Translations under genes and position numbers: made by a program
The notes under the pieces: model-generated
Seen by the model: the letters and a program-made list of their open reading frames with translations, nothing else
Told to the model about the DNA's origin: nothing
Databases searched by the model: none
Assembly: GCA_021108035.1 (NCBI GenBank)
Contig: JAIORQ010000083.1
Coordinates: forward strand, 1 to 49,386
Length of the DNA stretch: 49,386 bases
Reading direction: 5' to 3'
Source of the DNA: Bacteroidales bacterium
Lineage (GTDB): Bacteria > Bacteroidota > Bacteroidia > Bacteroidales > JAADGE01
Shown: one piece after another, positions 1-33,324 of the stretch
Numbering within the stretch: position 1 is the stretch's first letter
How the letters are laid out: every line of letters starts with the position of its first letter

Positions 1-74
1 ATTGTTACATTGTTTAATTGCTACATTGCTGTTTTTTAACAATTTAACAATGCAACAGTTTAACAATGTAATAA
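1..74. repeat. Imperfect inverted repeat of CATTG / TTAAATTG words
   Basis: The first ~30 bases (ATTGTTACATTG...) are mirrored by the reverse complement of about 41-74, with a few mismatches, so the segment can fold into a long imperfect hairpin. The same vocabulary (CATTGCTGT, TAACAATTTAACA) recurs inverted in the atpF-atpH spacer at about 25053-25118. It probably lies downstream of a gene outside the window and may act as a terminator-like or REP-like element; I see no coding capacity. Confidence 0.5.
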
Positions 75-155
75 CTTACTAAAAAGATATGAAAATCTAT
101 ACTTAAAATATTCCGAAACATGTAATAAAAATACATTCAAATGAGCTATATTTTA

Positions 156-23054: not shown

Positions 23055-24170
23055 ATGGAAAAAAATAAGTTCATGCTTAAAAATATTAAAGTTGTATTAA
23101 TCTTTGCTTTTAGCTTAGCTCTTATATTTTCTGCAAATTATGCATATTCTCAACATGGCGAAGATCATCATGGAGAAAACGGTGATGAGAAGAAGTTTAA
23201 TCCGGGAGAAATGATAATGGGACATATTGGGGATGAATATGGTTGGCATATCATGACAATAGGAGAGAAACACATTACCATTTCTTTACCGATAATTGTT
23301 TACAGCAAGCATTCCGGACTTTCTGTTTTTATGTCTTCAAAATTTCATCACGGTCATTCTTCATACAAAGGATTCCATATTGCAGAGGGAGAAGATAATC
23401 CGAATAAAGGAAAAGTTGTTGAATTTGTAGGCGAAACAGAAGTAAGGCCTTATGATATTTCAATTACAAAAAATACATTATCTCTTTTTTTCAGCATTAT
23501 AATAATATTATGGATTTTTATTTCTGTGGCTAAAGAATATCAGAGAAGAGAGGGACAAGCTCCGAAAGGATTGCAATCGTTTCTTGAACCGTTGATTTTA
23601 TTCGTAAGAGATGATATTGCAAAACCGGCGATAGGAAAGAAAAAATATATAAAATATACACCTTTTTTATTAAGTATTTTTTTCTTTATTCTTCTTAATA
23701 ACTTATTGGGATTAGTTCCGTTCTTTCCGGGTGGTGCTAATTTAACCGGTAATATTGCCGTTACAATGGTTTTGGCAATGTTTACATTTGTAATTACAAC
23801 CATCAACGGTAACAGGAATTATTGGAAACATATTTTTAATACACCCGGAGTACCGTGGTGGTTAAAACTTCCGGTTCCGTTAATGCCTTTAATTGAATTT
23901 ATGAGTATCTTTATTAAACCTTTTGTGCTTATGATACGTTTGTTTGCAAATATAACAGCCGGACATATTGTTGCACTTGGGTTTTTCAGTTTGATTTTTA
24001 TTTTCGGAGAGATGGGAGGTGTAGGAGCAGGTATCGGAGGCGGAGTATTTTCAGTTGTATTTACAATATTTTTAACATTTCTTGAATTATTGGTGGCATT
24101 AATTCAAGCATATGTTTTTACGCTTTTGTCTGCCTTATATCTCGGTATGGCTACGGAAGAGCACCATTAA
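23055..24170 (+). CDS. atpB: F0F1 ATP synthase subunit a
   Basis: Membrane subunit forming the proton half-channels against the c-ring. The 371-residue protein has the long Bacteroidota N-terminus: a signal-peptide-like helix (about 9-31) and a His/Glu/Gly-rich, probably periplasmic, region (GEDHHGENGDE, FHHGHSSYKGFH). Five or so membrane helices follow from residue 140. The essential arginine is R295 in VLMIRLFANITAGHI, and the last helix has the conserved LLVALIQAYVFTLLSALYLG. First gene of atpB-E-F-H-A-G. In related genomes it usually follows bactofilin-atpZ-4TM protein genes; here these are at 38.4-39.5 kb on the other strand. Confidence 0.95.
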   Translation: MEKNKFMLKNIKVVLIFAFSLALIFSANYAYSQHGEDHHGENGDEKKFNPGEMIMGHIGDEYGWHIMTIGEKHITISLPIIVYSKHSGLSVFMSSKFHHGHSSYKGFHIAEGEDNPNKGKVVEFVGETEVRPYDISITKNTLSLFFSIIIILWIFISVAKEYQRREGQAPKGLQSFLEPLILFVRDDIAKPAIGKKKYIKYTPFLLSIFFFILLNNLLGLVPFFPGGANLTGNIAVTMVLAMFTFVITTINGNRNYWKHIFNTPGVPWWLKLPVPLMPLIEFMSIFIKPFVLMIRLFANITAGHIVALGFFSLIFIFGEMGGVGAGIGGGVFSVVFTIFLTFLELLVALIQAYVFTLLSALYLGMATEEHH

Positions 24171-24206
24171 TGTTTTTTATTTTTTAAACCCTAATATATT
24201 TTTTTC

Positions 24207-24455
24207 ATGGAATTATTATTAGTCTTATTACAAGCAGTTGCTGATTATTCAGCAATTGGAGCAGGTTTAGGAGCTGCTGTTGCGGTTGTTGGTGCAGGCA
24301 TCGGAATCGGGAATATCGGCGGCAAAGCAATGGATGCAATTGCACGTCAACCTGAAGCAGCCGGTGACATAAGATCAAATATGATCGTTGCTGCCGCACT
24401 TATTGAAGGTGTTGCTTTCTTTGCGGTTGTGGTCTGCTTGTTGATTGTTCTTTAA
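24207..24455 (+). CDS. atpE: F0F1 ATP synthase subunit c
   Basis: An 82-residue two-helix hairpin proteolipid forming the rotor ring. Helix 1 is glycine-rich (AGIGIGNIGG); the polar loop is the classic RQPEA; helix 2 carries the ion-binding carboxylate E67 in AALIEGVAFFAVV. The Gln and Ser/Thr ligands of sodium-type rings are not present around it, so proton coupling is expected. It lies 36 nt after atpB and is followed by an intrinsic terminator. Confidence 0.96.
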   Translation: MELLLVLLQAVADYSAIGAGLGAAVAVVGAGIGIGNIGGKAMDAIARQPEAAGDIRSNMIVAAALIEGVAFFAVVVCLLIVL

Positions 24456-24469
24456 TCAACCGAACTGTT

Positions 24470-24508
24470 GAGTGAGATAAGCGATTGGCTTATCTTCACT
24501 CTTTTTTT
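24470..24508 (+). terminator. Intrinsic terminator/attenuator between atpE and atpF
   Basis: GAGTG-A-GATAAGC and GCTTATC-TT-CACTC form a 12-bp stem with a small internal mismatch and a 5-nt loop, followed by T7. It has full intrinsic-terminator form yet sits inside the operon, so it should act as a partial terminator lowering expression of b, delta, alpha and gamma relative to a and c. Confidence 0.75.
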
Positions 24509-24557
24509 AATTCTTTGTTGTTAGTAATTCTAATTTCAAAAATCTAATTTTAAAACT

Positions 24558-25052
24558 ATGGGTATAGTAACTCCTGATTTCGGATTAATTTTTTGGATGA
24601 CTTTATCTTTCATTTTAGTATTGTACATTCTAAAAAAATATGCATGGAAACCTATCTTAAAATCGCTTAAAGCAAGAGAAAAATCAATTGATGATGCTTT
24701 AAAATCAGCTGAGCGAGCTAAGGATGAAATGGACGGATTAAGGGCTGAAAATGAAAAAATATTGCAGGAAGCAAGAGAAGAAAGAGAAAAACTTTTAAGA
24801 GATGCAAGAGAAGTAAAAGACAGAATTTTAGCTGATGCAAAAGTTGATGCAAAAGCTGAAGCAGATAAATTGATTAGTGTTGCAAGAGTTCAAATTGAAA
24901 ATGAAAAACTTTCTGCAATTCACGAGATAAAAGAAACAGTTGTATCAATTTCAGTTGAAATTGCCGAAAAAGTAATAAAGAATTCATTGGATTCAGTAGA
25001 AAAACAAAAAAAATATGCAGATTCTTTATTAAAGAAAATTGAATTGAACTAA
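24558..25052 (+). CDS. atpF: F0F1 ATP synthase subunit b
   Basis: Peripheral stalk subunit, 164 residues: an N-terminal membrane helix (LIFWMTLSFILVLYILKKYAW, about 9-29 in part) and a long charged helix rich in Glu/Lys/Ala heptads (about 35-150), which dimerises and binds delta. KKYAWKPILKSLKAREKSI is the typical junction. It begins about 50 nt after the internal terminator and precedes atpH by 66 nt; the spacer contains a CATTG/TTAAATTG repeat element. Confidence 0.94.
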   Translation: MGIVTPDFGLIFWMTLSFILVLYILKKYAWKPILKSLKAREKSIDDALKSAERAKDEMDGLRAENEKILQEAREEREKLLRDAREVKDRILADAKVDAKAEADKLISVARVQIENEKLSAIHEIKETVVSISVEIAEKVIKNSLDSVEKQKKYADSLLKKIELN

Positions 25053-25118
25053 ACTGTTAAATTGTTACAGCAATGCAATAATGAAACAATATGTCGTATC
25101 AATGAAACAATGTAAAAG
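25053..25118. repeat. CATTG/TTAAATTG repeat words in atpF-atpH spacer
   Basis: The spacer is built of short repeated words (AACTGTTAAATTGTTACAGCA, then two copies of ATGAAACAAT). Reverse-complemented, its first part resembles the inverted repeat at positions 1-74. No gene or strong hairpin. Confidence 0.35.
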
Positions 25119-25661
25119 ATGAATACAAACAGAATATCAGTAAGATACGCTAAAGCTTTATTTGAACTTGCTTTGGAAGAGAATAAAGCTGAAAAAGTTA
25201 ATAATGATATGCATTTATTTTCTGAAGTATCAAATAATACTGATTTTAGAAGTTTTTTGGAAAATCCTGTAATATTTCCGTCAAAGAAACAAGAAGTTTT
25301 CAATAAAATATTTAAGAATAAAGTTGAGGAACTCAGTTTAAAATTTTTTAAACTTTTATCAATCAATAAACGTGAATTATTTTTAAAAGCAATTGCAAGA
25401 AATTACAGAAATTTTTACAGAAAACATTTCGGAATAAAATCTGTAGAATTGATTACACCATTTCCGGCAGATAAAAAATTAAAAAATGATGTAGCTGATA
25501 TAATTGCAACTGAATTTAATACAAAAATTGAAATGGCAGATAAAGTTGATCCGGAAATTATAGGAGGGTTTATTATAACAGTTGAATGGATGCAATATGA
25601 TGCAAGTGTTTCCTCAAAACTGAAAGATATTAAAAAAGAGATGATGGAAGCAACTGATTAA
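25119..25661 (+). CDS. atpH: F0F1 ATP synthase subunit delta
   Basis: Joins the peripheral stalk to the top of F1. The 180-residue protein has the usual two parts: N-terminal six-helix bundle (ISVRYAKALFELALEENKAE..., 1-105) and the C-terminal beta/helix domain with VELITPFPADKK and the signature DPEIIGGFIITVEWMQYDASV. Its stop codon TAA (25659-25661) touches the first base of a 103-bp-family repeat, followed by an inserted four-helix-bundle gene rather than by atpA. Confidence 0.94.
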   Translation: MNTNRISVRYAKALFELALEENKAEKVNNDMHLFSEVSNNTDFRSFLENPVIFPSKKQEVFNKIFKNKVEELSLKFFKLLSINKRELFLKAIARNYRNFYRKHFGIKSVELITPFPADKKLKNDVADIIATEFNTKIEMADKVDPEIIGGFIITVEWMQYDASVSSKLKDIKKEMMEATD

Positions 25662-25749
25662 ATAAATCTAAAATCAAAAATCGTTAATCCTTGTTCGATA
25701 TTCAAAATGATTTAAGAACAAGGAATTTCGATTAACGATTTAAGAAGTA
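25661..25749. repeat. Copy 0 of the atp hairpin repeat, upstream of the inserted gene
   Basis: These 89 bp are identical to 26116-26204. The sequence folds: AAATCGTTAATC (25678-25689) pairs with GATTAACGATTT (25730-25741) over 12 bp, and inner CTTGTTC pairs with GAACAAG over 7 bp, with a 7-nt bulge. It starts on the last base of atpH and ends 6 nt before the ATG of the four-helix-bundle gene. Confidence 0.9.
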
Positions 25750-25755
25750 TAAAAA

Positions 25756-26142
25756 ATGAATAAATTTGATTTAGAAGACAGGTTAATAGATTTTGCTGTT
25801 TTAATTATTGAAATTACTAATGAGTTGTCAAATTCGAAAGCAGGGAATCACATGCAAGGTCAATTGGTTCGTTCCGGTACGTCACCTGCATTAAATTATG
25901 GTGAAGCACAAAGTGGCGAATCAAGAAAAGATTTTATTCATAAAATTAAAATTGTTTTAAAAGAATTAAGAGAGACACATGTAGGATTGAAGATTATTTA
26001 CAGAGCTAAATTGTATAAAGTAGAATCAAAAATAAATTATGCGATAAAAGAAAGTAATGAATTAATTTCAATCTTTGTAAAAAGTGTAGAGACAGCTCAA
26101 AAAAACATGAAATTAAATAAATCTAAAATCAAAAATCGTTAA
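25756..26142 (+). CDS. Four helix bundle protein (23S rRNA IVS-type, TIGR02436-like)
   Basis: A 128-residue all-helical protein with the family pattern: LEDRLIDFAVLIIEI, then QLVRSGTSPALNYGEAQSGES, and KDFIHKIKIVLKELRETHVGLKII. Members were first met as the protein encoded by intervening sequences in 23S rRNA genes, and relatives include the Avd accessory protein of diversity-generating retroelements. They form small oligomers that bind nucleic acid; their role is unknown. Here it lies inside the ATP synthase operon. Two identical 89-bp hairpin repeats flank it: one ends 6 nt before the ATG, and the other begins inside the gene, so the last residues (NKSKIKNR) and stop codon are read from the repeat. 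It has no promoter of its own that I can see. Confidence 0.88.
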   Translation: MNKFDLEDRLIDFAVLIIEITNELSNSKAGNHMQGQLVRSGTSPALNYGEAQSGESRKDFIHKIKIVLKELRETHVGLKIIYRAKLYKVESKINYAIKESNELISIFVKSVETAQKNMKLNKSKIKNR

Positions 26143-26624
26143 TCCTTGTTCGATATTCAAAATGATTTAAGAACAAGGAATTTCGATTAACGATTTAAGA
26201 AGTAATAAAAGTGAAAGGAATAAATCTAAAATCTAAGATCGTTAATTCTTGTTCGATATTCAAAATGATTTAAGAACAAGGAATTTCGATTAACGATTTA
26301 AGAAGTAATAAAAGTGAAAGGAATAAATCTAAAATCTAAGATCGTTAATTCTTGTTCGATATTCAAAATGATTTAAGAACAAGGAATTTCGATTAACGAT
26401 TTAAGAAGTAATAAAAGTGAAAGGAATAAATCTAAAATCTAAGATCGTTAATTCTTGTTCGATATTCAAAATGATTTAAGAACAAGGAATTTCGATTAAC
26501 GATTTAAGAAGTAATAAAAGTGAAAGGAATAAATCTAAAATCTAAGATCGTTAATTCTTGTTCGATATTCAAAATGATTTAAGAACAAAGAACACCGATT
26601 AACAATTTATAAAGTAGTAAAATA
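26116..26624. repeat. Array of five 103-bp tandem hairpin repeats before atpA
   Basis: Copies start at 26116, 26219, 26322, 26425 and 26528, a constant 103-bp period; the last diverges after about 60 bp and ends near 26624. Each can fold as described for copy 0. Copy 1 is identical to copy 0 over 89 bp. Copies 2-5 share two changes in the outer 5' arm (AAATCGTTAATC to AGATCGTTAATT); both change a Watson-Crick pair into a G-U type wobble, so the RNA fold is kept. Units 1-4 end in AATAAAAGTGAAAGG. There is no coding capacity and no spacer variation. Confidence 0.92.
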
Positions 26625-26646
26625 AATAATTTAAAAATACATTACT

Positions 26647-28211
26647 ATGACAGGTATAAACCCCGCAGAAGTATCTGAAATTTTAAAACAGCAACTTAAA
26701 GGAATCAGTACAGCAACAGAATTTCAAGAAGTTGGAACTGTTATTGAAGTTGGTGACGGTATTGCGCGTATATACGGTTTACAAGGTGTTAAATATAATG
26801 AAATGATTGAATTCCAAAATGGAGTGCAAGGTATTGCTCTAAACTTGGAAGAAGACAATGTAGGAGCAGTATTATTAGGTCCTTCAGCAGGAATAGGTGA
26901 AGGCGATACTGTTAAAAGATTGAATAAGATTGCTTCAATCAATGTGAGTGAAGGTATGCTCGGCAGAGTTATAAACACACTTGGAGAAGCTGTTGACGGT
27001 AAAGGTGCAATTACAGGTGAAAAATTTAATATGCCTATAGAGCGTAAAGCTCCGGGTGTTATTTACCGTCAACCTGTAAACGAACCTCTTCAAACAGGTA
27101 TCAAAGCAATTGATTCAATGATTCCTATCGGCAGAGGTCAACGTGAACTTATCATTGGTGATCGCCAAACAGGTAAGTCTGCAATTGCAATTGATACAAT
27201 TATAAATCAGAGAGAATTTTATGATAAAGGAGAACCTGTTTATTGTATTTATGTAGCAATCGGGCAAAAAGGATCAACGGTTGCTAATATTGCAAAAACA
27301 CTTGAAGAAAACGGTGCTATGGTATATACTGTAATCGTTTCTGCAACAGCAGCTGATCCCGCGGCACTTCAATTTTATGCACCGTATTCAGGTGCTGCAA
27401 TCGGCGAGTATTTCAGAGATACCGGACGACCTGCATTAATTATTTATGATGATCTTTCAAAGCAAGCAGTTTCATATCGTGAAGTTTCTCTTCTTTTAAG
27501 AAGACCTCCGGGTCGAGAAGCATATCCGGGCGATGTATTCTATTTACATTCAAGATTGCTGGAAAGAGCTGCAAAGATTATTGATGATGATAAAATTGCA
27601 AAACAAATGAATGATGTTCCGGATTCTTTAAAAGGTAAAATAAAAGGTGGAGGTTCTCTAACTGCATTACCGATTATTGAGACTCAAGAAGGTGATGTAG
27701 CAGCATATATCCCGACAAATGTAATTTCTATTACTGACGGTCAAATCTTCTTGGATTCTAATTTATTCAATTCAGGTATCAGACCTGCAATCAATGTTGG
27801 TATTTCAGTTTCCAGAGTAGGGGGGAATGCACAAATAAAATCAATGAAAGAAGTTGCAGGGACATTAAAATTGGATCAAGCACAATTCAGAGAACTTGAA
27901 GCGTTTTTGATGCTGTTACACTTGCTGTTCTTGAAAAAGGAAGCAGAAATGTTGAAATTTTGAAACAAGGGCAATTTGAACCGTACAGAGTAGAAGATCA
28001 AATCGCTATTCTGTTTGTCGGCACTAAAGGATTATTAAGAGATGTTCCGGAAAATAAAGTTAAAGATTTTGAAAAAGAATATCTTGATTATATGAAAACT
28101 AAACATGCAGATGTTCTTGAATCATTATCCAAAGGTATTTATACAGATACTGAAATTAAAGTTATGGAAGAAGTTGCTAAAAACATATCTTCCGGTTATA
28201 TGAGAAATTAG
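26647..28211 (+). pseudogene. atpA: F0F1 ATP synthase subunit alpha, frameshifted
   Basis: Non-catalytic nucleotide-binding F1 subunit. From the ATG at 26647 the reading is normal: beta-barrel domain, Walker A GDRQTGKS (171-178), and the arginine-finger motif SRVGG near 395. At F420 (RELEAF, codon 27904-27906) the expected seven residues corresponding to S-x-F-x-S-D-L, followed by D, are missing. Only two T remain before GAT at 27909, from where the sequence continues correctly in another frame ([21 protein letters not shown]... to GYMRN) up to 28211. That equals a 19-nt deletion; restoring it would give 527 residues, the normal length. The uninterrupted frame stops at 27963 after 438 residues. 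The gene is either truly broken or the assembly is wrong here. An alpha subunit ending at 438 with a scrambled tail would lack the C-terminal helical domain. Confidence 0.9.
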
Positions 28212-28212
28212 A

Positions 28213-28304
28213 AATTATTATGCAATGTCGTTTAGTTGAAACCCTGTCAGAGGTTAAGTTTTCTAATAAAAAGTATCATAACTAAACGACATTGAATTAT
28301 TATG
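28213..28304. mobile_element. 72-bp palindromic MITE with 10-bp target-site duplication
   Basis: The element spans 28223-28294. Its ends are perfect 15-bp inverted repeats, CAATGTCGTTTAGTT (28223-28237) and AACTAAACGACATTG (28280-28294). The 42-bp middle holds the near-palindrome AACCCTGTCAGAGGTT. Directly outside, with no gap, AATTATTATG stands on both sides (28213-28222 and 28295-28304), as expected for a target duplication. The right copy includes the atpG ATG; the left copy contains the original ATG, which now opens a 21-codon reading frame across the element, ending at 28285. No transposase is in the window. Confidence 0.85.
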
Positions 28305-29174
28305 GCAAATTTAAAAGAAATAAGAACGAGAATAAAATCTGTTAAATCAACAAAACAGATAACTAATGCTATGAAAATGGTGGCTGCATCAAATTTGAGA
28401 AAAGCTCAAAATGCAATTATTCAATTAAGGCCGTATGCAAATAAATTAAATGAGATATTAAGTAGGTTAAGTGAGGTTAAAGGTGCCGGTTCAGATAATA
28501 TATATACAGAAAAAAGAAAAGAAGAAAATGTTTTGCTGATCGCTGTCAGTTCAAACAGAGGACTATGCGGACCGTTCAATTCAAATGTTGCTAAAAAAGT
28601 TATGGAATTGTCTGAAGGACAGTATTCAGAACAATATAATAAAGGAAAATTGACCATTTATACAATGGGTGCGAAAAGCGGTCAAATTCTTAATTCTAAA
28701 GGATATTGGATTGCAAAGAATTTCGATAAGGTATATGATAATCTTACATATGAAAATATATCAGGCATTACTGCCGGCTTAATGTCAGAATTCGCAAATA
28801 AAAATTTCGACAAAATTGAAATTATTTATAATCGATTTAAAAATGCTGTCGTTCAAATATTAACCCAAGAGCAATTTTTGCCTGTTAAGCATAATGATAA
28901 TACTCATGATAATAATGATTATATCTTTGAACCTACTCAACAATACATATTTGAAACCTTAATTCCGGATTCTTTAAAAACACAACTTTTTACTGCACTC
29001 ACTGATTCTTATGCTGCTGAACAAGGAGCCAGAATGACAGCTATGCACCAAGCAACTGATAATGCTACAGAAATGATACGCTCATTAACTATAACATATA
29101 ATAAAGCAAGACAAGCAGAAATTACTAAAGAGATTAATGAGATTACCGGAGGTGCGGAAGCTTTGAAGGGTTAA
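28302..29174 (+). CDS. atpG: F0F1 ATP synthase subunit gamma
   Basis: Central rotating shaft of F1, 290 residues. The N-terminal coiled-coil helix is typical (LKEIRTRIKSVKSTKQITNAMKM in part; MVAASNLRKAQ), the Rossmann-like middle has SNRGLCGPFNSNV, and the C-terminal helix ends with ARMTAMHQATDNATEMI and RQAEITKEINEI. The start codon lies within the duplicated 10-bp target of the small element just upstream, so the gene itself was kept whole. It ends the operon: the next gene is on the other strand, and atpD/atpC are not in the window. Confidence 0.95.
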   Translation: MANLKEIRTRIKSVKSTKQITNAMKMVAASNLRKAQNAIIQLRPYANKLNEILSRLSEVKGAGSDNIYTEKRKEENVLLIAVSSNRGLCGPFNSNVAKKVMELSEGQYSEQYNKGKLTIYTMGAKSGQILNSKGYWIAKNFDKVYDNLTYENISGITAGLMSEFANKNFDKIEIIYNRFKNAVVQILTQEQFLPVKHNDNTHDNNDYIFEPTQQYIFETLIPDSLKTQLFTALTDSYAAEQGARMTAMHQATDNATEMIRSLTITYNKARQAEITKEINEITGGAEALKG

Positions 29175-30441: not shown

Positions 30442-31368
30442 ATGAGAAATATTGGAATTATTTTATTACTGCTTTTTACCTGCAACATACAAACAAAAGC
30501 ACAGAAATACGAAGAACCGCAATGGAAAATACCCCTATACTTTGAAGATGCAACAGGTGCAAAAGATACTATTTGGATAGGGTACGACCCGGATGCAACA
30601 AGCGGAATTGACCCGCAATTTGATGAAGGATGGATGTGGATTGATACTACTGAATTTAATTTATATCAGTGGGCATACCCAAATACTTTACCGTTGTACG
30701 GTCCTATTGATACCGATTCAGTAAGAAAAACAGATATAAGCGAAGATATTGCAAACGGAGGCGGACGGGGAGGTTTTGTAAAAGGTGTTTTGCCTGTAAC
30801 ACTCACTTGGGATGAGGAAAAATTAAACAGTCCTGATTTACCCGAAGAATGGTTTCCTGATATATCACCAAGGCCGAGAGCAAGGATTGAACTATGGTTT
30901 GACCCTTTACCCGGACATACAGACCCTGATTGCGTTGTAATAAGTGATAAGCCTACGCTTGTTTTATCATCATATCCGGAAGGTTTGGAAATGTATCCTT
31001 GTGTTAAATCTAATCAAGCTGTTTTTGATAACTCAAATACAAATATACCTAATATGGCTTTTATGATTGCTCAAATTGTAATAAAACCTCACGATTATTC
31101 TTATGTTTCGGTTAATACAATAGGAAATAATATGATAGACGTATTTCCTAATATTTTCAGCAATATATTCTTTATTACAAATAAATCAAATGAATTATTA
31201 AATTTTGAAATATTTACTGTAAGCGGAAAGAAAATATTAAAGGGAAAAATAAAAGCCGGACAAGTAAAACAAAACATAAATATGGCTTTATACCCGCAAG
31301 GTATATATTTTATTAAATTTTCAAACAATACAAATAATTTTACTTCCAAACTTTTAAAAACTCAATAA
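30442..31368 (+). CDS. T9SS-sorted secreted protein, tandem paralogue 1
   Basis: The 308-residue protein has a signal peptide cut after TKA (residue 20). The mature region opens with KYEEPQWKIPLYFEDATGA and holds repeated Trp/Asp-rich strands (DTIWIGYDP, GWMWIDTTEFN, LPVTLTWDEEKLNSPDLP, PRPRARIE). The last ~75 residues are a type A T9SS sorting domain: VFPNIFSNIFFITN, a central VSGKKI and the closing YPQGIYFIKF...KLLKTQ. The usual PNP motif has become PNIF. Transport across the outer membrane by the type IX system is expected. The function of the body is unknown; a beta-sandwich adhesive or binding module is likely. First of three tandem copies leading into a 1681-residue T9SS protein. Confidence 0.82.
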   Translation: MRNIGIILLLLFTCNIQTKAQKYEEPQWKIPLYFEDATGAKDTIWIGYDPDATSGIDPQFDEGWMWIDTTEFNLYQWAYPNTLPLYGPIDTDSVRKTDISEDIANGGGRGGFVKGVLPVTLTWDEEKLNSPDLPEEWFPDISPRPRARIELWFDPLPGHTDPDCVVISDKPTLVLSSYPEGLEMYPCVKSNQAVFDNSNTNIPNMAFMIAQIVIKPHDYSYVSVNTIGNNMIDVFPNIFSNIFFITNKSNELLNFEIFTVSGKKILKGKIKAGQVKQNINMALYPQGIYFIKFSNNTNNFTSKLLKTQ

Positions 31369-31422
31369 TTATGAAGAAATATTATTTAAATTTGGGCTTT
31401 TAATTCTTAAAACAATAAAAAC
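31369..31422 (+). repeat. Duplicated spacer between paralogues 1 and 2
   Basis: This 54-nt spacer recurs at 32350-32403 with a single difference. It starts TTATGAAGAAATATTATTT; the ATGAAGAAAT resembles the beginning of the large gene at 33328 (ATGAAGAAATTTTGTTTATTT), so it is probably a decayed copy of that start carried along in the duplication. It encodes only the mini-frame MKKYYLNLGF. Confidence 0.8.
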
Positions 31423-32349
31423 ATGAAAAACAAACTAATTATTTTATTACTGCTCTTTACCTGCAATATACAAACAAAAGCACAGAAATACGAAGAACCG
31501 CAATGGAAAATACCTTTGTATTTTGAAGATGCAACAGGTGCAAAAGATACAATATGGATAGGATATGACCCAAATGCTGACGATCATTTTGAAACTATTG
31601 ATCCACAGTTTGACGAAGATTGGATATGGATAGATACAACAAAATTTAACGCTTATATTTGGCATTATCCAAATTGCTCCCCAACCTATCCCATTGATAC
31701 GGACTCTGTTAGAAAAACAACCATAGCATCGTGGATTTTTCCTTATTCAGAACTTGGGTTTGTAAAAGGAGAAATGCCTGTTACTATAACTTGGGATGAG
31801 CATAAATTAAACAGCCCTGATTTGCCGGATAATTTTCCGGATATCTCACCAAGACCAAGAGCAAGAATTGATATGACTTTTGATTTTGGACCTGGTATTA
31901 CTGATCCGGATTGTTTAGTTATTTATGACGGACCAACTGTTGTACTTACATCTAATACTGAAGGTCTTGGAATGTATCCGTGTATTAAAACAGAAAATTT
32001 AATTTTTAACAGCACTTATGAAGTTGAGCCTGGAGCTGCTTTTTTTAATTTCTTTATTCAGATAATGCCTCACGATTATTCATATGTTTCAATAAACGAA
32101 ATAGATGAAAAGGTTGTAGAAGTTTTTCCGAATATCTTTAAAGATGAATTCTTTATTTCAAATAAATCAGCTAAAGATTTTCATTATAAAGTATTTTCAA
32201 TAAGCGAAAAAAAGATTTTAACCGGAAACATTTTTTCGGGACAAAAAAATCAAAACATAAATATGTCTATATATCCTCAAGGTGTATATTTTATTAAATT
32301 TTTTAACAATACAAATAATTTTACTTCCAAACTTTTAAAAACACAATAA
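31423..32349 (+). CDS. T9SS-sorted secreted protein, tandem paralogue 2
   Basis: A 308-residue paralogue with nearly the same signal peptide and opening (QKYEEPQWKIPLYFEDATGA) as its neighbours, but the most diverged middle: FETIDPQFDEDWIWIDTTKF, then HYPNCSPTYPIDTDSVRK. PDISPRPRARID is followed by MTFDFGPGITDPD where the other copies have WFDP-PGHTDPD. The sorting tail (VFPNIFKDEFFISN ... YPQGVYFIKF ... KLLKTQ) is nearly the copy 1 tail. It thus joins conserved ends to a diverged core, which suggests selection for variation or gene conversion at the ends. T9SS export is expected; function unknown. Confidence 0.82.
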   Translation: MKNKLIILLLLFTCNIQTKAQKYEEPQWKIPLYFEDATGAKDTIWIGYDPNADDHFETIDPQFDEDWIWIDTTKFNAYIWHYPNCSPTYPIDTDSVRKTTIASWIFPYSELGFVKGEMPVTITWDEHKLNSPDLPDNFPDISPRPRARIDMTFDFGPGITDPDCLVIYDGPTVVLTSNTEGLGMYPCIKTENLIFNSTYEVEPGAAFFNFFIQIMPHDYSYVSINEIDEKVVEVFPNIFKDEFFISNKSAKDFHYKVFSISEKKILTGNIFSGQKNQNINMSIYPQGVYFIKFFNNTNNFTSKLLKTQ

Positions 32350-32403
32350 TTATGAAGAAATATTATTTAAATTTGGGCTTTTAATTCTTAAAACAATAAA
32401 ATC
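32350..32403 (+). repeat. Duplicated spacer between paralogues 2 and 3
   Basis: Second copy of the 54-nt spacer at 31369-31422, one base different near the end. It confirms that the duplicated unit was gene plus spacer (about 0.98 kb). Confidence 0.8.
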
Positions 32404-33324
32404 ATGAAAAACAGACTAATTATTTTATTACTGCTCTTTACCTGCAACATACAAACAAAAGCACAAAAATACCAAGAACCGCAATGGAAAATACCCCTGT
32501 ACTTTGAGGATGCAACAGGTGCAAAAGACACAATATGGATAGGGTATGACCCAAGTGCCACAAGTTCAATTGACCCGCAATTTGATGAAAGTTGGATGTG
32601 GATTGATACAACTGAATTTAATGTTTATCAAATGTGGTATCCGCAGAATGCACCTATATACGGCCCGATTGACACAGATTCTGTCAGAAAAACAAATATA
32701 AGAAATTGTTGTTCGTTTGTAGGTGGTATGGGCTTTGTAAAAGGTGTTTTACCGGTAACACTTACTTGGGATGAGGAAAAATTAAACAGTCCTGATTTAC
32801 CCGAAGAATGGTTTCCGGATATATCACCAAGGCCGAGAGCAAGAATTGAAATGTGGTTTGATCCTGTTCCCGGCCATACAGACCCTGATTGCGTAATTAT
32901 TAGTGACAAGCCTACACTTGTTTTATCATCATATACAGAAGGTTTGGAAATGTATCCTTGTGTTAAATCTCATAATGCTGTTTTTGATAATTCAAATACT
33001 AATGAACCTAATATGGCTTTTATTGCTGAAATTGTTATTATGCCACATAATTATTCTTATGTTTCTGTTAATACAATAAAAGGTGGGACAATAGAAGTAT
33101 TTCCCAATATATTTAACAATGAATTTTTTATTTCAAATAAATCAAATGAGGTTTTGCATTATCAAATATATTCAATAAGCGGAAAGAAAGTTTTCTGTGG
33201 CAATATCAATACAGAACAGGCAAAACAACAAATCAACATGTCTCATTTTACATCAGGTATATATTTTATTAAATTTTTTAACAATACAAATAATTTTACT
33301 TATAAACTTTTTAAAACACATTAA
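32404..33324 (+). CDS. T9SS-sorted secreted protein, tandem paralogue 3
   Basis: A 306-residue paralogue. The core matches copy 1 (SIDPQFDESWMWIDTTEFN, WFDPVPGHTDPDCV, LVLSSYTEGLEMYPCVKS), but the sorting tail differs more (NIFNNEFFISN ... SISGKKVFCGNIN ... FTSGIYFIKF) and ends YKLFKTH. Signal peptide as in the others. The stop is 3 nt before the start of the 1681-residue gene, so they are translated from one message and probably work together on the cell surface. Body function unknown. Confidence 0.82.
   Translation: MKNRLIILLLLFTCNIQTKAQKYQEPQWKIPLYFEDATGAKDTIWIGYDPSATSSIDPQFDESWMWIDTTEFNVYQMWYPQNAPIYGPIDTDSVRKTNIRNCCSFVGGMGFVKGVLPVTLTWDEEKLNSPDLPEEWFPDISPRPRARIEMWFDPVPGHTDPDCVIISDKPTLVLSSYTEGLEMYPCVKSHNAVFDNSNTNEPNMAFIAEIVIMPHNYSYVSVNTIKGGTIEVFPNIFNNEFFISNKSNEVLHYQIYSISGKKVFCGNINTEQAKQQINMSHFTSGIYFIKFFNNTNNFTYKLFKTH

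Follow-up and report, generated by a model that had tools for sequence, protein, structure and literature searches.

The spacer between the ATP synthase genes atpH and atpA in the Bacteroidales genome analyzed here holds a gene of the 23S rRNA intervening sequence protein (IVP, S23) family together with six copies of a 103-bp hairpin repeat. This case is part of a much wider pattern: in relatives and in named genomes, IVP genes mostly have the same orientation as both neighbours and often lie between complementary flanks built of 7-bp words. We propose that such a locus is an IVP element, i.e. a single-gene guest of co-oriented operon spacers consisting of the ORF and two complementary arms of 7-bp words. 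The proposal includes putative pairing of the arms, binding by the IVP protein and cleavage by an RNase; taken as a whole it is tentative and in our estimation falls slightly short of an even chance.

The window, i.e. the whole stretch of 49,386 bp that was analyzed, is one entire contig (C83) of a draft genome of 4.96 Mb in 116 contigs. The locus is composed of the following features.

25119..25661, plus strand: upstream host gene, which we take to be atpH (ATP synthase delta subunit) from gene order; from the ORF list and the junctions in relatives

25661..25749, plus strand: repeat copy 0, a hairpin identical to 26116-26204; fold z -5.5, identity at lag 7 of 0.56

25756..26142, plus strand: IVP gene for a four-helix-bundle protein of 128 aa, 23S rRNA IVP / S23 family; PF05635 2.3e-11, TIGR02436 1.6e-20, predicted structure

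26116..26218, plus strand: repeat unit 1; from tandem-repeat and sequence comparison

26219..26527, plus strand: repeat units 2-4 (starts 26219, 26322, 26425), with three common substitutions relative to unit 1

26528..26622, plus strand: repeat unit 5, 3' half diverged, a poor hairpin; differs from unit 1 at 17 of 103 positions, fold z -1.6

26647..27963, plus strand: downstream host gene atpA (ATP synthase alpha subunit), whose frame is broken shortly before its end when set against relatives; from the match to relatives

The original prediction of hairpin repeats and a four-helix gene of the IVS type between atpH and atpA was confirmed by both family matches and by the six repeat copies. 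Equally, there is no difference between copies 0 and 1 over 89 bp, and the last eight codons and the stop of the gene (26116-26142) are part of copy 1, as had been claimed. The tandem units start at 26116, 26219, 26322, 26425 and 26528 with a period of 103 bp. Copies 2-5 had been regarded as alike and as differing from the first two by two changes that keep wobble pairing. By reading the sequence, the substitutions at unit positions 19 and 29 indeed preserve a G-U pair; however, units 2-4 carry three substitutions each (positions 16, 19 and 29, the same in each), and the 17 differences of unit 5, located mainly in its 3' half, had been missed. Copies 0-4 fold better than first-order Markov shuffles (z -5.5 to -3.3), which is not clearly the case for the last copy.

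Within the 103-bp repeat a 7-bp period was found (identity 0.56 at lag 7 and 0.51 at lag 14; 0/1000 shuffles). Each repeat is made up of two arms, a C-type and a G-type one. The IVP gene is flanked upstream by a G-type arm (about 25707-25749, the second half of copy 0) and downstream by a C-type arm (26116-26158, the first half of unit 1), and these arms are complementary (inverted score 29, 0/60 shuffles). An alternative reading of the array is a tandem series of arm-loop-arm units with the IVP gene in the loop of the first one.

The complete 103-mer has its sole site in the genome at this locus. Pieces of it, 36-45 nt long with 84-92% identity, occur at several other sites without a nearby IVP match; at L010, L011, L012 and L018 (around 1501) such pieces belong to gene-less repeats with alike surroundings. 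A classical MITE or simple transposon was rejected, as the 103-mer is found only here and the other IVP loci of the genome use other words. A CRISPR-like array was rejected as well, given that the entire 103-bp period is repeated and there are no unique spacers, and so was a known cis-regulatory RNA, with only sub-gathering-score matches to nuoG and a snoRNA.

Some further observations concern the surroundings. Repeated words (aatgaaacaat) are likewise present in the spacer before atpH (window 25053-25118), and a second junction of the ATP synthase operon may therefore carry a related array. The atpA frame is open for 438 aa. Relatives match residues 1-421 of it and, when full-length, have frames of about 526-538 aa; another ORF lies behind it in a different frame (window 26647-28211), and the cause is either real decay or a sequence error. 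At window 30442-33324 three paralogous genes of 306-308 aa follow each other in tandem, and their starts are nearly identical. Spacers with period-8 word arrays (such as taatttactaaataac) were found at window 1-75 and in L196 from 11717.

Both family matches of the IVP protein, to Pfam and NCBIfam respectively, lie above the cut-off. Its AlphaFold2 model (pLDDT 92.5) is a four-helix bundle, and the closest structures in Foldseek are 2rld (E 1e-5) and 2gsc, entries which name no function. A similar fold is that of Avd of the diversity-generating retroelements (4dwl, TM 0.71, 9% identity, E 0.29). Residues Q36, N47 and E73 show little or no variation. Values of dN/dS were 0.05-0.24 in 23 IVP pairs and at most 0.15 in all but one of them, with some of the dS values above 1 and saturated. 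Hence the IVP protein is under purifying selection, i.e. it is maintained. IVP genes were present in 88 of the 118 sampled Bacteroidota genomes with up to 16 per genome.

To place the locus in this wider context, three sets of IVP loci were used. Set D comprised 81 of 146 TIGR02436 matches, representing 80 regions of this genome and of relatives plus the window; 68 loci had both neighbours and 66 had usable flanks. Set E contained the best 80 of 585 confirmed loci in named genomes, with a query that biases it toward the fad-type subfamily, and overlaps with set D by one locus (L110 = L197). The third set contained 29 phylum-wide loci. As controls served 20 stretches of 20 kb that were chosen away from IVP loci and not at random. 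Genes were called by a simple longest-ORF method, which was the same for loci and controls.

IVP genes were co-oriented with both neighbours at 63/68 loci of set D, 67/76 of set E and 20/25 of the third set, compared with 172/280 control genes, although the sets span many genomes and the control regions come from this genome only (Fisher 1e-7 for set D and 4e-6 for set E). Among control genes of at most 200 aa, 46/84 were co-oriented on both sides. In this genome alone the same holds for 10 of the 11 IVP loci with both neighbours. Co-orientation could be the product of a process at the RNA level, or simply reflect that a gene lacking its own promoter has to be transcribed.

Complementary flanks were found at 50/66 loci of set D (47/66 on rerun), 44/62 of set E and 15/27 of the third set, against 6 of 81 control trios, again from one genome. 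In set D the own flanks beat those of other loci in 39/66 cases. Five of the six control trios were read and resemble other guest genes. A presumed DUF559-like endonuclease and two genes that we take to be RAYT-like were seen in the control regions, each within its own palindromic repeat (L193 6120, L193 9903, L196 2071). The arms of IVP loci with an arm score of at least 14 fill the spacer, starting at a median of 4-5 nt after the upstream stop and ending 7-16 nt before the next start.

The genome itself has 14 IVP matches. For five of them the distance to a contig end is at most about 1.3 kb, compared with 0.85 expected (P 0.001), which might suggest that repeats interrupted the assembly. 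By eye, the flanks of most of these loci are runs of short words that differ by locus. Other junctions that carry IVP genes in this genome include murD-ftsW, serC-serA, pyrG-yidC, the position before guaA and an epimerase-carboxyltransferase pair, some of these gene names being presumptive.

The 7-bp period, with its multiples 14 and 21, recurs in the flanks of all three sets. Autocorrelation in set D peaks at 7, 14, 21 and 28, with a weaker series at 8, 16 and 24. The identity at lag 7 was 0.442 upstream and 0.511 downstream in set D (shuffles about 0.34), 0.451 and 0.488 in set E, and 0.36 and 0.35 in the third set (versus 0.29 and 0.28). For 122 control spacers it was 0.331, and the five that were individually periodic were all so at lag 8. 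The degenerate consensus word in the G-rich orientation is NYNAGWW, based on 158 of 195 arms after omission of 29 with more C than G and 8 without skew. A common heptad phase fitted 157 arms, the doubled locus removed, with -1152.3; under the same fitting, 20 column-permuted nulls gave -1194.9 to -1189.7. Among loci with an arm score of at least 14 (61 in set D and 43 in set E), the 5' arm was G-rich in 49/58 and 41/42 of those with a skew, respectively. No array of any period from 5 to 11 was detected within 330 bp at 21 of the 81 relatives' loci (threshold 0.55).

Nine records of set E are titled outside the Bacteroidota, the labels being those of draft-genome records. Five of them showed significant lag 7 in a flank (one Ignavibacteriae, one Betaproteobacteria, two Clostridia and one Ruminococcus), and two of these five loci were not co-oriented on both sides according to the simple gene calls. 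The other four had no significant lag 7 or too little flank.

To separate the IVP-specific features from those of guest genes in general, GxxExxY genes (29 of 30 loci) and Y1 transposase genes (25 of 30 loci) were compared in the same 40 genomes. GxxExxY genes were co-oriented in 22/26 cases and had direct repeats in 15/22 and complementary flanks in 13/22. For Y1 genes the respective numbers were 12/17, 11/22 and 13/22. At neither type of locus was the lag-7 period present. Repeat bracketing is therefore common to several guest genes, and the heptad is the mark of the IVP gene among those examined. One GxxExxY gene, in L186 (reverse strand, about 14287), adjoins a direct array of ~41 bp (gacgctgattttcgctgatt...).

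REP hairpins with their RAYT (Y1) genes resemble the IVP loci as far as short hairpins bracket one small gene in spacers. Y1 genes are present in this genome. However, the IVP protein is not a Y1 transposase, and a REP/RAYT identity was rejected since the gene matches only IVP/four-helix families in Pfam and NCBIfam and the flanks of Y1 genes are without the 7-bp period.

Heptad arrays are not confined to IVP genes. In this genome the consensus pattern matches 28 times, at 17 sites, compared with 6 times for the backward pattern, and none of the 17 sites has an IVP match within 10 kb on the same contig. We therefore rejected the view that the arrays are exclusive to IVP loci. Of 18 inspected matches, 15 begin no more than 24 nt from where a called ORF ends; the runs at these sites (L343-L370) are short TTAGAAA/TTAGATA heptads, mostly a few bases from a gene end. 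A strict scan of 400 kb at a threshold of 0.60 gave no period-7 and four period-8 arrays; it misses short arrays and is an unfair measure of exclusivity.

Such arrays without an IVP gene would be expected if the heptamers had a passive origin in polymerase slippage and IVP genes merely sat in slippage-prone spacers. In the part of PMC4679880 available to us, which relates Mrazek 2007, heptamers outnumber all other classes of long simple repeats in most genomes, and slippage is proposed as the cause. Slippage alone, however, would not be expected to give complementarity on two sides with a fixed strand asymmetry, to give a shared heptad phase or to leave other guest genes without the period. 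We regard this origin as quite improbable.

The original prediction tied the repeat to the four-helix gene. Complementary heptad flanks are far above controls, and as an anatomical rule the link is well supported. It does not extend to the 17 arrays and the repeat pieces that lie without a nearby IVP gene, and complementarity as such is also found at GxxExxY and Y1 loci.

Next to the anatomy, the movement of gene and arms was analyzed. At the fadJ|fadA (n=21) and fadA|acd (n=17) junctions the own arm pairs were more complementary than swapped ones (0/2000 permutations at either junction; 21 of 26 and 17 of 21 listed loci, with L166 of another IVP subfamily at fadJ|fadA omitted). IVPs with at least 60% identity and no detected shared neighbour had an arm score of at least 22 in 33% of 66 pairs from different genomes and in 40% of 10 pairs within one genome, although short contigs may conceal shared neighbours. 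This score was reached by 10% of pairs with 45-60% identity and by 3-5% of those below 45%. Arms thus tend to travel with related IVPs, and a mobile cassette of gene and repeat, as had been proposed, is fairly supported as a travelling unit. The window itself gives a weaker signal. Its arms score 23, 22 and 18 against those of its IVP relatives L163, L107 and L105 (median of 77 loci 13), which rank third, fifth and about ninth, but the top two matches (score 23) come from IVPs that are not closely similar to that of the window.

Close IVP relatives tend to keep to one operon but to change the junction. Pairs with 75-100% identity shared the operon in 59/78 cases, 12 of these at another junction, compared with 36/86 for pairs with 65-75% identity and 57/4463 for pairs without a BLAST match. 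In set E the fad operon holds 43/80 loci (23 between fadJ and fadA, 16 between fadA and a presumed acyl-CoA dehydrogenase gene, 4 elsewhere), a number inflated by the fad-type query; in set D it holds 10/81. The gene names are best family matches and not all are above curated cut-offs. Additionally, related IVPs were found at different junctions of a presumed purine operon. In an ABC-exporter operon, CAGTAGG-type word arrays are present at most junctions, and in genome G013 an intact IVP gene and two decayed pieces were read between its successive genes. The near and far arrays of one operon matched best in only 5 of 12 loci.

This fidelity would fit a regulator bound to its operon. Here, an IVP protein useful to the host would bind heptads at junctions within its own operon and act on translation, stability or mRNA processing, and movement would be a by-product. 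The shared operon of close relatives, the different fad junctions occupied and the same type of array at several ABC-exporter junctions all point in this direction, as does purifying selection on the IVP similar to that on homologous neighbour genes. On the other hand, the patchy presence of IVP genes and the existence of copies with internal stops look like a guest, the fad count carries the bias described above with only 1 of the 29 loci of the third set adjoining a fad gene, and the atpH-atpA junction is free of IVP genes in 10 same-genus genomes. We consider such a regulator unlikely.

The latter junction was analyzed in 13 genomes of the same genus, 10 of which had an atpA match. None of these 10 carries an IVP gene before atpA; empty junctions, which the original prediction had proposed to look for, do exist. 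The spacer is short in eight of them, with 13-55 bp in seven and ~57 bp in G003, where it was measured by eye because the automatic ORF call ended early. G013, which has the most similar atpA, has an arm-like stretch without a gene in a spacer of 81 bp, and G006 a gene-less hairpin in one of 107 bp. At the order level, G032 has a spacer of 216 bp with a different word repeat and no IVP. The IVP element at this site looks recent, and after its arrival the arm-loop-arm unit may have been amplified in tandem.

The single hairpins fold well as RNA. The arm mismatches, however, showed no preference for G-U over A-C in sense RNA (83 v 139 and 48 v 65 for sets D and E, loci with an arm score of at least 14; 78 v 107 in the swapped-locus control). 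Moreover, the antisense duplex was lower in energy than the sense duplex in 86 of 137 loci (sense 51). Both tests of sense-RNA structure were negative, and consequently they give pairing in the sense transcript no advantage over a role at the DNA level. RNA folding or processing, which had been offered as the reason why an essential operon tolerates the insertion, is therefore unsupported by these tests.

The missing wobble signal would rather suit a mobile element at the DNA level, with the arms as terminal inverted repeats or iterons that are read as DNA by the IVP protein or by an enzyme in trans. Co-orientation would then be an outcome of selection, as a promoterless guest is expressed only inside a co-oriented operon. 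The fixed strand asymmetry, the tendency of gene and arms to travel together and the gene-less arms at junctions that are occupied by an IVP in other species are also consistent with such an element. It is at odds with the arm words, which vary by locus and by species at one junction unlike known transposon ends, and with the locus, which encodes no transposase recognised in Pfam or NCBIfam. We judge it improbable, though slightly less so than the regulator.

In the IVP element that we favour, the host transcript would be the operon mRNA, with the ORF in a loop between complementary ends. The arms may pair in this transcript and the IVP protein may bind the paired arms. A double-strand RNase could then cut the stem, separating the flanking cistrons without loss of either product.

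This plan resembles that of the 23S rRNA IVS, which has the same protein family (PF05635, TIGR02436) and likewise an ORF between complementary ends. For Coxiella, the part of PMC4990558 that was accessible describes an S23p ORF within a stem that RNase III cuts, three GACAGAT and one GACAGAA just upstream of the ORF, and reductive evolution of the ORF. Both of these heptamers fit NNNAGAW. Heptamers beside the ORF are a likeness to the Coxiella IVS in particular. Excision of an IVS is by RNase III, and the rRNA ends are not religated. The loci analyzed here differ in that the host is a spacer of a protein operon and not an rRNA gene (no rRNA match was present in window 24000-28500), that heptad words occur on both sides and differ by locus, and that the ORF is under purifying selection. 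The plan of the IVP element is that of the 23S rRNA IVS transferred to protein operons. IVPs were found in rRNA insertions of CPR too, as stated in a section of PMC11270868.

Orphan heptamers may be a further counterpart. The sections of PMC4679880 at hand describe intergenic TAACTGA heptamers without a known partner, with other proteins as candidate binders; this text has 0 occurrences of S23, intervening and four helix. In excerpts of PMC4692102, over-represented heptamers are noted with little detailed study, among them GGGAATC in Xanthomonas with some inverted arrangements. As far as these excerpts go, both TAACTGA and GGGAATC are direct repeats of 7 nt that occur in spacers, and some lie near start codons within operons. 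Of the two, TAACTGA fits NYNAGWW when rotated on the other strand, whereas GGGAATC does not. No account of heptad-flanked IVP genes in operons was found in the open-access literature searched, a scope outside of which lie most subscription papers and all preprints.

Taken further, IVP elements could be widespread operon guests with complementary 7-bp arms as an address that is read by an IVP ring. They would walk along and between operons and leave heptad arrays behind, thus being a source of orphan heptamers, and the 23S rRNA IVS would be the member that landed in rRNA. We consider this extended picture possible but rather doubtful. For the IVP family, represented by the structures 2rld and 2gsc, the heptad arms bracketing its gene are a candidate partner. 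They could also help to explain why 7-nt repeats are in excess in bacterial spacers and may extend the rRNA IVS plan to protein operons, with guest genes that live between essential operon genes.
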